A stretch of 38,859 bases of DNA, taken from positions 1 through 38,859 of IMG/VR virus record IMGVR_UViG_3300046514_000359; one strand, given 5' to 3'. The notes under the pieces are model-generated. The model had not been told where the DNA came from. It searched no databases and saw only the letters and a list, made by a program, of their open reading frames with translations. The position numbers were made by a program, and so were the translations under genes. Each line of letters opens with the position of its first letter. Within the stretch, counting starts at the first letter, position 1. The stretch comes from a virus. Positions 9,521 to 38,859 of the stretch are shown here, one piece after another.

Positions 9521-10120
9521 CTATAAACCTGAAAGTGCAGTAGAACCTAATGATGCTCCTAACATAGGATTACCCATATACATGCCAGCAATACCACCCC
9601 CAACACCGCCAATAACACTACCCCATCCTCCAAGAGCTTTACCTTGTTCTTCATGAGGCTCTTGTACAAGACCTTTTTCATATGGTTTTTGACCAAGTAT
9701 CTGGTTACTCAATCCCATTAAATCCATAATAGCTTGTTGACGCATCTTTGCTCTATTAGATTGAAGTTGACCTGCAAAATCTTGAGCTGCCGAATTCATA
9801 CTATTCTGAAATCCACTACTATTTCTTGCACCCATTCCCATACCGCTAAATCTAGACGCAATGTTTCCTTGCAATGCATTAAATTGCTGTAATGCTGGCT
9901 TTTCCATTGCTGCAAACTCGTTAGGATCACCCGCTGCCAATCTTGAAAGATAACTATTCGGTGCTACCTGCCCAAACTGTTGACCATGCAATTGCATTTG
10001 TTGATCAGTGTAATTGTTCAATTTATAAGAGCTGTATCCTTCTGGATCCTGCTCTCTAGTTTGAGCGGGTGCGTTTGAATAAGAACCGCTTGAAGAATAT
10101 GCGCCGGGTGGCATTGTCAT
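9521..10120 (-). CDS. internal virion / DNA-ejection protein candidate, 199 aa
   Basis: A 199-residue protein. Residues ~60-150 are Ala/Gln/Met-rich helices with ASRFSGMGMGARNSSGFQNS, then DFAGQLQSNRAKMRQQAIMD, a pattern I associate with small podovirus core or injection proteins that line up in the portal. Residues ~165-199 are a Gly/Ala/Met zipper (GGVGGGIAGMYMGNPMLG), probably membrane-active. It lies just downstream of the nozzle and adaptor genes. It probably leaves the head with DNA and contacts the cell envelope. The family name is uncertain. Confidence 0.6.
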   Translation of the reverse strand: MTMPPGAYSSSGSYSNAPAQTREQDPEGYSSYKLNNYTDQQMQLHGQQFGQVAPNSYLSRLAAGDPNEFAAMEKPALQQFNALQGNIASRFSGMGMGARNSSGFQNSMNSAAQDFAGQLQSNRAKMRQQAIMDLMGLSNQILGQKPYEKGLVQEPHEEQGKALGGWGSVIGGVGGGIAGMYMGNPMLGASLGSTALSGL

Positions 10121-15315: not shown

Positions 15316-15933
15316 CTAAACACCTACTATTTCAATCTTTTTAGCATGACATCTTCTGCAAATCCAAATTACATCTAAAGGTTTATTGTAATCTTCATGA
15401 TGCCCTTCAGTTTTACATTCCTTACCACATTCTTCACAATTCTCTCTTCTGACCAACGTTCCATTTTTAATAGCTGTATGAACTTTTTGATGAGAATTGT
15501 GTTTTTCTTTATTCGTCTTCTGCCATCTCTTTACATAACTTCTATACAATTGAGGATTTTTTGTCCTCCATTCTTTTTGTCTTAGATTTTCTTTAATTTT
15601 ACCAAGCTCATCACTTCTTTTTTCTTTTCTTCGTATGGAAATTGAGATTTTATGTTTATAATAGCATTCTCTATTTTTCTCTAATCGTCTTTCTCTGTCT
15701 AACCAGAATGCTTCTCTAGCTTTTTCATTAATTTTTTGTCTATTTTCTTCTCTGTATTTTTCAGCATAAACTTTAAGTTTATTTTTAGATTCATCACTTA
15801 TTCTTTCATTTATTTCTTTTCTAATTATTTTTAGGCAATCTTTACAATAACTACAAAATCCGTCTTTTTTTTGCTTTTCTTTCGTGTAACTTTCAAAACT
15901 CTTTTCCAATTTACATCTGTAACAAATTTTCAT
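15316..15933 (-). CDS. free-standing HNH endonuclease with two zinc-finger modules, 205 aa
   Basis: Start chosen at MKICYRCKLEKSFESY (15933), which has AAGGATAGCAAA before it; an ATG 23 codons upstream has none. Residues 3-36 form a Cys4 finger (CYRC...CSYCKDC), the middle 100 residues are a highly basic helix, and residues ~168-200 form the HNH treble clef (NCEECGKECKTEGHHEDYNKP then ICRRCH). Such HNH proteins nick DNA and spread by homing. It is inserted between a virion gene and the adaptor gene, without visible intron. AT-rich codons differ from its neighbours, suggesting separate origin. Confidence 0.8.
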   Translation of the reverse strand: MKICYRCKLEKSFESYTKEKQKKDGFCSYCKDCLKIIRKEINERISDESKNKLKVYAEKYREENRQKINEKAREAFWLDRERRLEKNRECYYKHKISISIRRKEKRSDELGKIKENLRQKEWRTKNPQLYRSYVKRWQKTNKEKHNSHQKVHTAIKNGTLVRRENCEECGKECKTEGHHEDYNKPLDVIWICRRCHAKKIEIVGV

Positions 15934-16004
15934 TTTGCTATCCTTTTTACCTACACGATAGCAAAACGTTTTATATTTCTCAATGTATTTATTGGATGAC
16001 ATAC

Positions 16005-16589
16005 CTAAAAGTTAGAATTTTGCCCCATAAACACCGTACGTCTAGTGGAAACTGGCATAGCATCCAATCTCTGTATCGTCGTATCTGCTGCCATCGCTCC
16101 ATAATATTCGCCCATTTGATCACCACCAACGCTAGTTGATTGTTTCATAATCAATCTGTGGTAATAGCATCGTTTAATTTGTTCGGCTAAATATCTAGGC
16201 CCCCAAACAGGCTTATTCACAGGTACTTTCCACCATTCAGCAGGCATTCCACCATACGGACGAGTCCAAATATCGATATCCTCGCCTAAGATTTCTCTGT
16301 TTTCAGCTATAAATTGAACGTATTCTTTGTCATATTCAAATTGAGTACGATAATCTTCATTGAATTTGTCTTGGCAACTGACTGTACGGTGAGGTTTCAA
16401 GTATATCTCTTTCTTTTTGGAAAGCTCTTGCTGTGAAAGTTTAGTCTGCTGCTCTACTTCATGTTTTGGGGCTTGATTCATGCGATCAAGTGTTAGGCTA
16501 TTCACGTTATCAGCAAAATCTTTAAATTGTCCTTCGACTTTATCGAGTTCTTTTTCTGATTCTGAATTCATGTTTGGTTTTTTCGACAT
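16005..16589 (-). CDS. conserved-looking virion-region protein, 194 aa
   Basis: A 194-residue protein. Residues 1-60 are charged and probably disordered; from residue ~65 a compact Tyr/Trp-rich domain begins (PHRTVSCQDKFNEDYRTQFE, later DIWTRPYGGMPAEWWKVPVN and WGPRYLAEQIKRCYYHRLIM). It ends with MGQNSNF. It sits between capsid-associated proteins and the adaptor gene, where other phages have head-completion or virion genes. The family is not recognised. The aromatic-rich pattern suggests a stable structural protein. Confidence 0.5.
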   Translation of the reverse strand: MSKKPNMNSESEKELDKVEGQFKDFADNVNSLTLDRMNQAPKHEVEQQTKLSQQELSKKKEIYLKPHRTVSCQDKFNEDYRTQFEYDKEYVQFIAENREILGEDIDIWTRPYGGMPAEWWKVPVNKPVWGPRYLAEQIKRCYYHRLIMKQSTSVGGDQMGEYYGAMAADTTIQRLDAMPVSTRRTVFMGQNSNF

Positions 16590-17029: not shown

Positions 17030-17042
17030 GATACTCCTAAAA

Positions 17043-17067
17043 GAGCGAGGGCAAATAGCCCTCGCTC
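17043..17067 (-). terminator. rho-independent terminator after the 392-aa virion gene
   Basis: GAGCGAGGG (17043-17051) and CCCTCGCTC (17059-17067) form a perfect 9-bp GC-rich stem with a 7-nt loop. In the leftward direction the stem is followed by CTTTTAGGAG, a short U-run. It falls between the stop of the 392-residue gene and the ribosome site of its shorter paralogue, so it should reduce expression downstream of capsid and decoration genes. Confidence 0.75.
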
Positions 17068-17078
17068 ATTAATGTTGT

Positions 17079-31768: not shown

Positions 31769-32023
31769 ATGAAAATGCAATGGGCGCAAGTGCTACTTAT
31801 CGTATTCGCAATGTACTATTTATCGGCATGTGAAAGAGACGCGTCGAAAGAAAGTAATCGATTGATGATAGAGACAATCAAGGAAGTATCAAAAGAAGTG
31901 AGAAACGTTAAGTCTGAGCTACTCGACACAAACATAAAATTGATTGAAACGAAGATCCAACTTAGCAGATTTCACTCTGACATGAATGCTCATAATCTAA
32001 AAATGCAAAGGAAAACGCTATGA
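31769..32023 (+). CDS. small lipoprotein with coiled coil, 84 aa
   Basis: MKMQWAQVLLIVFAMYYLSA ends in the lipobox LSAC (Cys 21), so the mature chain would be anchored by lipid. The rest (KESNRLMIETIKEVSKEVRN and so on) is one long coiled coil. The start at 31769 is chosen since GAGGTTAAA precedes it and the signal fits. Such short lipoprotein coiled coils resemble outer spanins (Rz1-like), and a membrane protein gene follows by 4-nt overlap; a lysis role is possible. Superinfection exclusion is an alternative. Confidence 0.65.
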   Translation: MKMQWAQVLLIVFAMYYLSACERDASKESNRLMIETIKEVSKEVRNVKSELLDTNIKLIETKIQLSRFHSDMNAHNLKMQRKTL

Positions 32024-32298
32024 GTAAAGAAATGTATATGTTTACAGAAATTTCTTCAGGGATTTTCATAGCTTTAGTTTTTTTTTGTTTCATATTTAAA
32101 AAACCAATCAAAGAATGGATCAGGAAAATAAAATTGATAAAATATTTATCTTTTTTTGGGATAATATTATTTTTTTTCTATTTTCCTGATCCATTTGGCT
32201 ACTTAATTTTATTTTTCCTTTTTCTTTATCTGTACGAAGAACGAAAAAGCAGTTGGAAAGAAGAATGTAGAAAAGAATGGGAAAAAAAAGAAAAATAA
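32020..32298 (+). CDS. membrane protein with two to three spans, 92 aa
   Basis: Hydrophobic segments at about residues 12-28 (SSGIFIALVFFCFIF), 44-58 (FFGIILFFFYFPDP) and 59-72 (GYLILFFLFLYLY), followed by a strongly charged tail RKSSWKEECRKEWEKKEK. The start overlaps the lipoprotein gene (ATGA). Number of spans, short loops and charged C-terminus fit a class I holin. With the lipoprotein it might form a lysis or envelope-defence pair. There is no nearby endolysin. Confidence 0.6.
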   Translation: MSKEMYMFTEISSGIFIALVFFCFIFKKPIKEWIRKIKLIKYLSFFGIILFFFYFPDPFGYLILFFLFLYLYEERKSSWKEECRKEWEKKEK

Positions 32299-32305
32299 AT
32301 TTACC

Positions 32306-32334
32306 TTGGCTTTTAAGGCATACAGGCATATAAA
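32306..32334 (+). promoter_or_regulatory. promoter of the structured leader
   Basis: TTGGCT (32306-32311), 17-nt spacer and TATAAA (32329-32334). Expected start at 32341-32342, one base from the first hairpin of the structured RNA (32343). The near-perfect agreement between start and first stem supports both. Confidence 0.7.
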
Positions 32335-32342
32335 ATGAAGAA

Positions 32343-32477
32343 GCCCGTGATGTTAGTCACGGGCACTAAGTACGTCGGTCAGGCAATGAACACGCACTTG
32401 GAACAAAACGGATGTTGTCTACACTATAGAACATAGACAATATCACAAGCAAGAGTTTTGTTCAAGGGCCGACGTAC
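32343..32477 (+). ncRNA. structured RNA element before the replication gene
   Basis: Begins with hairpin GCCCGTGA/TCACGGGC (32343-32364). Then come three nested stems: GTACGTCGG/CCGACGTAC (32370-32378 with 32469-32477), CTTGgAACAAAAC/GTTTTGTTCAAG (32397-32409 with 32455-32466, one bulged G) and TTGTCTA/TAGACAA (32415-32421 with 32434-32440, 12-nt loop). A promoter starts directly ahead, and the initiator-like gene begins 34 nt after. It could be a regulatory leader, a small RNA, or the DNA itself could be part of an origin. No known RNA family recognised. Confidence 0.7.
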
Positions 32478-32510
32478 AAAAAATAACAATTGTACACACA
32501 AGGCTTTCTC

Positions 32511-33380
32511 ATGACACTTTCCGAAGAATTATACGCAGTCTACTTAGAGAATGAAGAACCTAATTTCTATTCCAGGGTACCTCATATTCTTGACTATTTA
32601 ACATACGATCACATTGATGAAAAAACTGGAAAAATTGAAATACGCAGACTAAGTATCTACGCAAAAGAATTGTATAGAGTGCTAAAGTCAGTAGCTGGAG
32701 ATCAAGGTGCATGTTGGCAAAACAGAGATAAGTTAGCGGAAACTTGCAATATGTCAGCTGGTCAGATAGGAAATTGCAAAAAAGAACTCACTCAAAAATT
32801 CCATCAACTCGATGGAAATCCTCTTATTCATATTGATAAAGTTCAAAAATGTACTGTAGGAGGTGGGATTATCAAAAATAAAACCTATAACGACAGAATC
32901 AAAGTGAAAAATATTTGGGGTTACAATAATGCATTTATGCGAACCAGAGACCTAAGAAAAAAGGAAGCATCGACACAAGATGACTCCCCTTCTAAAGCAT
33001 CGACACAGAATGACGATGCTACCCAGGAAGCGGTGACATGTGGTGACACAAATAACAACCCTATTAATAACCCATTGTTTATAGAACAACAACCCGGCAC
33101 AGCCGTGCCTGCTGTCGTTCCTTATCAAAAAAACAAAGTTGTTTTTTCAGACGAACGTGATAAATCCTATAACTGGTTGATATCCCTTGGATTCAAAGTT
33201 AAGGATGCATTAAAGATATGCATGGATTACTCTACAGATGAGATCAGAAAAGCTAATGAATATATGGTGAATCAGCTTAAAATCAACACTTCTAAGCGAA
33301 TAGCTTCTCCCTCAAACGAACATGGATACTTCGTAAATATTTTGAGAAATAAATATTGGGAAAAGAAAAAAGCATACTAA
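32511..33380 (+). CDS. replication initiator-like HTH protein, 289 aa
   Basis: Start at MTLSEELYAVYLENEEPNFY, behind AAGGCTTTCTC. Residues ~45-105 contain the winged-helix part (YAKELYRVLKSVAGDQGACW, QNRDKLAETCNMSAGQIGNC) used by phage O-type and DnaD-like initiators. Residues ~150-200 are a disordered Thr/Asn/Asp linker. The C-terminal domain (KSYNWLISLGFKVKDALKI and so on) may bind the host helicase loader or DNA. The structured RNA or repeat region lies in front, as with origins next to initiator genes. A terminator closes the gene. Confidence 0.65.
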   Translation: MTLSEELYAVYLENEEPNFYSRVPHILDYLTYDHIDEKTGKIEIRRLSIYAKELYRVLKSVAGDQGACWQNRDKLAETCNMSAGQIGNCKKELTQKFHQLDGNPLIHIDKVQKCTVGGGIIKNKTYNDRIKVKNIWGYNNAFMRTRDLRKKEASTQDDSPSKASTQNDDATQEAVTCGDTNNNPINNPLFIEQQPGTAVPAVVPYQKNKVVFSDERDKSYNWLISLGFKVKDALKICMDYSTDEIRKANEYMVNQLKINTSKRIASPSNEHGYFVNILRNKYWEKKKAY

Positions 33381-34694: not shown

Positions 34695-35182
34695 TTGAAT
34701 ACCCTCCCTGCAAAAAATGCAGAAAATCCCACGGAATGGGAGTTGAAAATATGGGGACTGGTGAGATTACTCCGTTAGATATTTGTTCAGATTGCCTTTA
34801 TGGTGGAACAAAATACGGGTGTATGAATTCAGAGCCAGAATACCCAAAAGTTCGTTTGACTATTGATGATTTAGAAAAAATGAATAATGACGATGAACTT
34901 ATATTAAAAACTCCCGAAACTGTTGTTCTTGAAGAAGAATTTGGATGTAATCAATCTGTACGTTTATGGAATCCAAAATTATACGATGATGAAGGAAATG
35001 AAATAATGTGTGCATGCGGAAAATCTGCCGAACAAATTACAGTCGGAAAAGAATCGTATTTGGCAATGTGTAATTCATGCATACAAGATTACGAAAATGA
35101 ATTTATTAATCCAGGAACTCATGTATTTAAAAGATATCCTCCTTTAATTCCCCCTAAAATCGGAGAAAAACTATATGATTAA
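34691..35182 (+). CDS. Cys-rich zinc-binding protein, 163 aa
   Basis: Two Cys clusters: CKKCRKSHGMG...CSDCLYGG (residues 7-37) and CACGKSAEQI...CNSC (about 113-133), each resembling a zinc ribbon. The middle ~60 residues are acidic. The start overlaps the mini HNH gene (ATGA). Function unknown; zinc-ribbon pairs like this suggest binding of nucleic acid or a host protein. Confidence 0.55.
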   Translation: MIEYPPCKKCRKSHGMGVENMGTGEITPLDICSDCLYGGTKYGCMNSEPEYPKVRLTIDDLEKMNNDDELILKTPETVVLEEEFGCNQSVRLWNPKLYDDEGNEIMCACGKSAEQITVGKESYLAMCNSCIQDYENEFINPGTHVFKRYPPLIPPKIGEKLYD

Positions 35183-35642
35183 CTGGACACTAGGCATATA
35201 TCAGATAAAAGACCTCAAAGCTAACGAGAAGAATCCCCGTCAAATCTCGAAAGATCAATTCAATCAGCTTCAAGTTTCGATAGAGAAATTCGGTTTCATC
35301 GATCGCCCGATCATCAATAAAAATCTACAGATAATCTGCGGTCATCAACGCATAAAAGTTTTGAAGCGACAGAAAGCAAAGACCGTAGAATGCTGGGTTC
35401 CCGATAGGATGCTTGAAGAAAGTGAAGTTGAAGAATTAATGGTACGCCATAACTTAAACACTGGCTCTTTCGATTTCGATATACTAGCCAACGAATTCAA
35501 TGCTCTTGAATTGCTAGATTGGGGTTTCACTGAATCGCAATTGATGGGGACATTCGACGACAAGAAAGATGAAGAAAGCGAAGAAAAAACATCTAAGAAA
35601 GGTAAGAAGAATACTTGCCCGATGTGTTCACATGAATTTTGA
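35175..35642 (+). CDS. ParB/Srx-like nuclease-domain protein, 155 aa
   Basis: Residues ~12-100 are the ParB-type core: LKANEKNPRQISKDQFNQLQ, SIEKFGFIDRPIINKNLQII then CGHQRIKVLKRQK and VECWVPDRMLEESEVEELMV. In phages such domains often precede a DNA methylase; here no methylase follows. The tail is charged (DEESEEKTSKKGKKN) and ends with a zinc hook-like CPMCSHEF. It may bind DNA or act as a CTP-binding or nuclease domain. Overlaps its neighbour by 8 nt. Confidence 0.75.
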   Translation: MINWTLGIYQIKDLKANEKNPRQISKDQFNQLQVSIEKFGFIDRPIINKNLQIICGHQRIKVLKRQKAKTVECWVPDRMLEESEVEELMVRHNLNTGSFDFDILANEFNALELLDWGFTESQLMGTFDDKKDEESEEKTSKKGKKNTCPMCSHEF

Positions 35643-38452: not shown

Positions 38453-38519
38453 AATAGATGAATTCATGGTTAAAAGATATTGGTTCGAATTAAAGGAAAA
38501 GGAAAAAGAAAATGATTAG
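38436..38519 (+). CDS. possible very small linker peptide, 27 aa
   Basis: MNSRIEIDEFMVKRYWFELK followed by EKEKEND. The start lies in the end of the membrane protein gene and the stop overlaps the GroES-like start. Short and with no clear ribosome site, but the frame continuity between two coupled genes supports it as translational bridge. Confidence 0.35.
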   Translation: MNSRIEIDEFMVKRYWFELKEKEKEND

Positions 38520-38763
38520 ACCCTTAGCAAAAAACATGTTGATCAAAAAAATCAAAGAAGAAAAACCATCTTTGATTATTGTACAAACATCCATTACAGG
38601 ACCGTTTAAGGCTGTATTGATATCTAAAGGAAATCAAGTTGATCTTGAAGTAGAAATTGGAGATATACTTCTCATAAATCAGTTTGGACCTGTACAATTC
38701 GACAAAGAAGATGATGAACATCTGCTAATAACGGAAAGAGATGTTTTAGGTGTTATTATTTAA
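38512..38763 (+). CDS. GroES-like co-chaperonin, 83 aa
   Basis: The order of motifs matches GroES: MIRPLAKNMLIKKIKEEKPS at the start (IRPLxxxxLxKxxxxE), then VLISKGNQVDLEVEIGDILL (VGDxVL part), and EHLLITERDVLGVII at the end (xLIxxxxDILxVI). At 83 residues it is slightly shorter than the host's ~95-100. GroES-like proteins of phages, such as T4 gp31, adapt the host GroEL for folding of the capsid. The last gene of the rightward arm, before the terminators. AAAGGAAAAGGAAAAAGAAA precedes ATG. Confidence 0.8.
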   Translation: MIRPLAKNMLIKKIKEEKPSLIIVQTSITGPFKAVLISKGNQVDLEVEIGDILLINQFGPVQFDKEDDEHLLITERDVLGVII

Positions 38764-38768
38764 CTGAA

Positions 38769-38817
38769 TGCACACGAAGTGTCATGAAGTGTGCAGATAG
38801 TCTATAATAGACTATCT
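38769..38817. terminator. double hairpin at the convergent end of the right arm
   Basis: First stem TGCACAC (38769-38775) with GTGTGCA (38789-38795); second stem AGATAGTCTA (38795-38804) with TAGACTATCT (38808-38817), 10 bp with a 3-nt loop. They follow the GroES-like gene and face the leftward arm that ends 6 nt from the other edge of the window. Probably a bidirectional terminator; no long U-run. Confidence 0.7.
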
Positions 38818-38859
38818 GACACAAATCTGGATCAATTTAAATACGACACAAATTTGTGT
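38818..38859. repeat. GACACAAAT repeat and palindrome joining the two ends of the window
   Basis: GACACAAAT occurs at 38818-38826 and 38845-38853. The last six bases (TTGTGT) equal the first six of the window; if joined there, GACACAAATTTGTGTC forms a perfect 16-bp palindrome that bridges the ends. This fits a circular or permuted genome whose assembly stopped at a palindrome, and the palindrome may be part of the terminator cluster. Confidence 0.6.

Follow-up and report, generated by a model that had tools for sequence, protein, structure and literature searches.

In the window studied here, a 38,859-nucleotide stretch of phage DNA, the replication initiator gene is preceded by a strongly folded leader that recurs in diverged phages, carries compensatory changes and has two computed alternative folds, one of which leaves the Shine-Dalgarno (SD) sequence of the gene open and the other closes it. 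On this modeling, the leader is likely a translational switch of the initiator mRNA, exposing or hiding its ribosome-binding site. As the trigger of the switch, an antisense RNA encoded on the opposite strand is somewhat favored.

Structure of the leader and its conservation

The elements of the leader, all on the plus strand, are as follows.

32306–32334, plus strand: probable (predicted) sense promoter, TTGGCT-17-TATAAA, hexamers and spacing kept in the relative L006
32343–32364, plus strand: P1 hairpin, GCCCGTGA-TGTTAG-TCACGGGC, located where the sense RNA is predicted to begin (RNA folding)
32370–32477, plus strand: P2, long imperfect helix (RNA folding; compensatory double changes relative to L006)
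32370–32380/32467–32477, plus strand: P2a, outer stem of P2, GTACGTCGG/CCGACGTAC, 9 bp (11 with the next two pairs)
32397–32409/32455–32466, plus strand: P2b, middle stem, 12 bp, one bulged G
32411–32421/32434–32444, plus strand: P2c, inner stem, TTGTCTA/TAGACAA, 11 pairs when extended, one of them G-U
within 32370–32477, plus strand: conserved 3′ internal loop of P2, ATCACAAGCAAG
32465–32470, plus strand: anti-SD AGGGCC, within the P2 3′ arm and able to pair with GGCTTT at 32502–32507
32474–32495, plus strand: P3, GTACAA-10-TTGTAC, component of the SD-closed fold
32500–32503, plus strand: SD sequence AAGG of the initiator gene

The structure is real and is the least probable fold within the window. 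Region 32338–32490 folded as RNA at −56.4 kcal/mol (z −7.65), none of 200 shuffles being as good, and the leader ranked first by z among the 1108 strand-windows of a whole-genome folding scan. The first-pass annotation had described nested stems of 9, 12, and 7 bp over 108 nt, judged them unlikely to be accidental, and known no matching family; the stems are there over exactly this span (32370–32477), the statistics bear out the second statement, and the third is correct for Rfam, whose covariance models at gathering score matched no family in the window or its relatives.

Other folds also stood out in the scan. The lowest energy belonged to the scan segment containing a very strong hairpin at 17040–17070 (GAGCGAGGGC..GCCCTCGCTC), which lies between two minus-strand genes and is probably an intrinsic terminator. 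A minus-strand fold at the right end (38711–38850; z −6.7) overlaps the end of a GroES-like gene (38512–38763), and 15891–16030 and 9941–10080, in the structural gene region, had z below −6.

A leader of this layout was found at the same place, ahead of homologous initiators, in five diverged phage lineages (L006, L016, L026, L035, and L036). Initiator identity to the window was 46% for L006, 36% for L016, and 45% for L026 (the same as L027), and for the partial sequences of L035 and L036 it was 46% and 32%. A sixth lineage, L019, has a weakly homologous initiator (E = 1.3e-5) and a similar leader, and one virus contig (L002/L003) is identical to the window at the leader. L019, L020, and L023 share with the window mainly the gene downstream of the initiator, which we take, by reading of its sequence, to be RusA (the putative RusA gene had no match in Pfam or PHROGs); their leaders were strongly folded too. 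In a further RusA relative, L024, no strong structure was found ahead of the gene at the initiator place. A DNA similarity search against phages and an initiator protein search in phages and plasmids returned nothing useful, and the genome contigs searched for relatives yielded none. Pattern searches were set aside: the outer stem gave one chance match, within a structural gene of L004, and the loop gave five matches, all by chance.

A covariance check among related phages, proposed in the first-pass annotation, came out in favor of the stems. L006 is the nearest alignable relative; its altered stems read GTACGTAAGGCAC/GTGCCTTACGTAC and GATATAC..TGAA/TTCA..GTATATC. With the P2 arms of the two phages aligned by hand beforehand, we counted seven compensatory double changes, three in P2a and four in P2c. 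Watson-Crick pairing is kept at 11 of 11 positions in P2a and 10 of 11 in P2c; simulated arms kept as many pairs in 47 and 44 of 200,000 trials, respectively. The single broken pair (C-A) reads as a wobble on the minus strand. In L016, L026, L035, and L036 the layout of hairpin, long helix, and SD-proximal hairpin before the initiator is retained, with stem sequences that are unalignable.

At the upstream end, TTGGCT (32306–32311), a 17-base spacer, and TATAAA (32329–32334) are in place as had been noted earlier, so the predicted start falls directly upstream of the P1 hairpin. In L006 both hexamers and the spacer length are unchanged, the 276 bp upstream are only 25% identical, and P1 is 95% identical to that of the window. 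By weight-matrix score and shuffling, the predicted promoter had p about 0.035 at 32306–32334; support was equal, at p about 0.03, in the window, L006, and L016, and none of this kind was obtained in L026. A region-wide promoter scan found 37 sites against 40.6 expected, within chance, and 32306–32334 was absent from the sites listed. In L035 a bidirectional terminator (L035:3711–3736) immediately follows the TATAAA box, and transcription of the initiator would thus depend on a separate promoter in this phage. A short upstream ORF (32387–32437, 16 codons) was dropped as a candidate; L006 has no start codon at the corresponding place.

Predicted alternative folding at the ribosome-binding site

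P3 and P2a have the sequence GTAC in common and are therefore mutually exclusive. We computed the accessibility of the SD core in the full leader and in its 3′ half, obtained by cutting the leader at the top of the P2 helix; leader boundaries and SD core were picked by hand for nine leaders and fixed for control genes. Without the 5′ half, the 3′ half of the window leader folds onto the SD, and the unpaired probability of G32502-G32503 falls from 0.74 to 0.001. The whole-AAGG average barely moves (0.57 to 0.50), because the pairing involves the GG only. The corresponding values for the SD core GG were 0.95 to 0.03 in L006, 0.52 to 0.01 in L016, 0.49 to 0.01 in L026, 0.55 to 0.00 in L019, and 0.29 to 0.00 in L035, so that the computed switch is present in six of the nine leaders. 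In folding of the other three, L036 and L023 had a closed SD in both states, that of the full leader included, and no switch was seen in L020. When the 5′ half was shuffled, the observed SD opening was reached in 0–1 of 200 trials for each of the six switching leaders. By the same definition, a switch was computed for just one of 62 other genes from these phages (Fisher p = 4e-6).

The 5′ arm of P2 contains an SD look-alike, AAGG in L006 and L035 and GAGG in L016 and L026, and such a copy is what a pre-emptor requires. We read the switch as the main function since it explains the recurrence of the helix, the exclusion of P2a and P3, and their closeness to the SD despite sequence change. Of the roles proposed in the first-pass annotation, that of a cis-regulatory leader is the one supported by the compensatory changes, the common layout in diverged relatives, and the SD-closing alternative fold. 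We dropped the idea of P3 as a fixed 22-bp dyad serving as a protein operator: the corresponding elements of L035 and L036 differ in length and pair with the SD.

A candidate antisense RNA on the opposite strand

Three features are predicted on the minus strand.

32489–32517, minus strand: candidate antisense promoter, GTGTCA (32517–32512)-17-TACAAT (32494–32489), start at about 32482
32329–32364, minus strand: candidate antisense intrinsic terminator, P1 hairpin with T-rich tail TTCTTCATTTTATA, at the tO position and the first terminator-like site in a scan of the region
32329–32482, minus strand: proposed antisense RNA, some 150 nt long and complementary to P1-P2, as deduced from the predicted promoter and terminator

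The number of T per 10 bases in the minus-strand tail is 7 in the window, 8 in L006, 8 in L016, 9 in L026, 6 in L020, and 7 in L023; on the plus side of the same six leaders it is 2, 3, 0, 3, 3, and 3. Pooled, the minus tails have 45 T in 60 positions (p about 6e-9 against a background of 38% T). L026 and L036 have minus-strand hairpins that carry a UUCG loop and are followed by seven to nine T; in L036 the upstream end of the leader holds a tandem pair of minus-strand terminator-like hairpins (L036:840–925), one of them with the UUCG loop and nine T. L019 has no T-tailed minus-strand terminator.

In the window, L006, L016, and L026, the best promoter predicted on the minus strand around the initiator start places its −35 element on the start codon and its −10 element 6–11 bases from the end of P2 (p = 0.07, 0.003, 0.15, and 0.06, respectively), and its sequence block is conserved between the window and L006. 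The best minus-strand promoter of L035 is weak. As a control, the same script recovered lambda pO and an OOP RNA of about 80 nt. The independent RNA that the first-pass annotation had considered is hence plausible, but on the strand opposite to the initiator gene, where the predicted promoter and the T-tailed terminator are found.

The initiator gene, probable origin, and neighborhood

32511–33380, plus strand: replication initiator gene, 289 aa (weak match to phrog_270, replication initiation protein, E = 0.0019)
32965–33014, plus strand: two 20-bp iteron-like repeats with spacing 30, inside the initiator gene, probable origin

The gene after the leader is initiator-like, as first annotated, and its length of 289 residues was confirmed. 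It has homologs in L006, L016, L026, L035, and L036; a search of Pfam gave no match, and with it no membership in RepA_N or Rep_trans. Direct repeats lie within the initiator genes, two in the window, three each in L006, L016, L026, and L023, and four in L019, roughly 296–560 nt from the gene start; those of L006, L016, and L026 are placed like the pair in the window. The script used for this search also found the four lambda O iterons, at 349–416. Because the repeats are found there, as in lambda O, the replication origin is probably inside the initiator gene. The proposal in the first-pass annotation of an origin with initiator-bound dyads is disfavored by these repeats and by stems that alter their sequence and keep their pairing.

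The gene order is a small HTH gene (weak PHROGs match), small ORFs, the leader, and the initiator. One of the ORFs upstream of the leader (32020–32298), which contains a 33-nt inverted repeat (82% complementary; 32114–32195), is missing at the corresponding place in L006. Further downstream, a ParB-like gene (35175–35642) encodes 155 aa; its L006 homolog has the same start and 416 aa, so the window version looks truncated or split.

Discussion

In the mechanism that we propose, the 5′ half of P2 in the nascent leader would capture the 3′ half and thereby leave the initiator SD open (ON). Were the 5′ half occupied, the freed 3′ arm with its anti-SD would, together with P3, pair over the SD, which would then be closed (OFF). 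The occupying agent would most likely be an antisense RNA of about 150 nt that starts at the promoter over the initiator start codon, runs opposite to the gene, and ends at the P1 intrinsic terminator; its level would go up with phage genome copies and less initiator would be made. We infer this RNA, its binding, and the copy-number feedback, and the switch and its antisense trigger, taken jointly as described, have about an even chance of being right. Since no T-run follows the downstream hairpin on the plus strand, transcription termination is not predicted, and control would be at translation.

A possible but fairly improbable alternative keeps the switch and gives it another operator, such as the initiator protein, a host protein, temperature, or transcription speed, the T-tailed hairpin only stopping stray antisense transcription. 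The sense strand by itself predicts the switch, the sense promoter is conserved, and the folding z was lower on the plus than on the minus strand in six of seven leaders, by a small margin in some (the minus strand of 32338–32490 gave z −4.82); what this reading leaves unexplained is the recurring minus-strand promoter at the start codon and the minus-strand terminator at the far end.

It is unlikely that an OOP-type antisense RNA or the convergent promoters act by RNA polymerase collision or alone, the leader fold then being a side effect of complementarity. The location corresponds to that of lambda tO-oop-pO, flanked by a Cro/CII-like gene and by an O-like gene that contains iterons, and lambda pO lowers transcription from pR near the origin and affects replication (PMC3985674). 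A module of this type would not predict the SD switch, however, and lambda oop, which is antisense to cII, overlaps cII with its 3′ end (PMC3349717), whereas the predicted RNA would end at about 32329, some 30 bases downstream of the upstream ORF end at 32298, and so stop short of the upstream gene.

We consider it very improbable that the leader is a DNA element serving the replication machinery either as an origin dyad or as a single-strand initiation site. Folding of 32338–32490 is strong with DNA parameters too (z −6.70), and wobble pairs counted over the leaders show no preference for either strand, but the location of the origin-like repeats within the gene speaks against this reading, which also fails to explain the coupling to the SD. 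Just as little probability goes to a put-like antiterminator RNA. In HK022, put is a double structure at the 5′ end of the RNA that makes RNA polymerase read through downstream terminators, and the present leader likewise has a hairpin one or two bases past the predicted start and then a second structure; sequence and Rfam lend this reading no support, and it does not predict the SD switch. Functionless inverted repeats produced by chance or mutation are extremely unlikely in the face of compensation and recurrence across diverged phages; other inverted repeats do lie nearby (32114–32195).

A translational switch of the initiator leader suggests that early phage replication may be controlled at initiator translation. 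More tentatively, several diverged lambda-like lineages might limit early genome number in this way, an antisense RNA at the oop position flipping a pre-emptor switch in the initiator leader. The layout (a structured leader ahead of an initiator gene containing repeats and, at the distal end of the leader, a terminator on the minus strand) could guide searches where sequence similarity is lacking.

Antisense-RNA copy-number control is textbook knowledge for plasmids, and the phage leader would be a variant of this known kind; predicted convergent promoters around a complementary folded leader are the layout of an antisense-controlled replicon. In pSK41 the origin lies within rep, and RNAI, once bound, brings about a stem-loop that blocks the ribosome site of rep; the pre-emptor of pT181 sequesters an arm of a downstream hairpin (PMC5703833). 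Mutually exclusive pre-emptor and SD-closing hairpins of this sort are present in our computed folds, and by analogy the leader may work like the antisense replication control of these plasmids. With pSK41 (staphylococcal RepA_N plasmids) it would share an origin in the initiator gene, a counter-transcribed RNA complementary to the leader (here predicted), and an SD-closing stem-loop that forms once the upstream part of the leader is sequestered (PMC5703833); unlike pSK41, it belongs to a phage with an unrelated initiator, and the proposed RNA of about 150 nt would cover the whole helix, whereas RNAI has about 83 nt and lies about 100 nt upstream. As in pT181 and pIP501 attenuation, a segment of the 5′ leader pre-empts a downstream hairpin that antisense binding would release (PMC5703833); the plus strand differs from both in lacking a T-run after that hairpin.

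No sequence similarity was found between the leader and lambda tO-oop-pO. The position is the same, between a gene at the place of cII and an O-like gene with internal iterons, and a minus-strand promoter near the start codon and a self-terminating antisense RNA, as in lambda, are predicted here. Lambda OOP is 77 nt long (PMC3985674, PMC3349717); the RNA predicted here would differ in its estimated length of about 115–180 nt, in having the initiator leader as its complement, and in its coupling to an SD switch. The role of lambda oop/pO in replication has been disputed for decades (PMC3985674, PMC3349717), and a conserved leader switch at the oop place offers a concrete, testable link between it and plasmid control. 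If diverged lambda-like phages do limit their genome number in this way, lambda OOP would represent one version of a broader group of counter-transcribed controls next to O-like genes.
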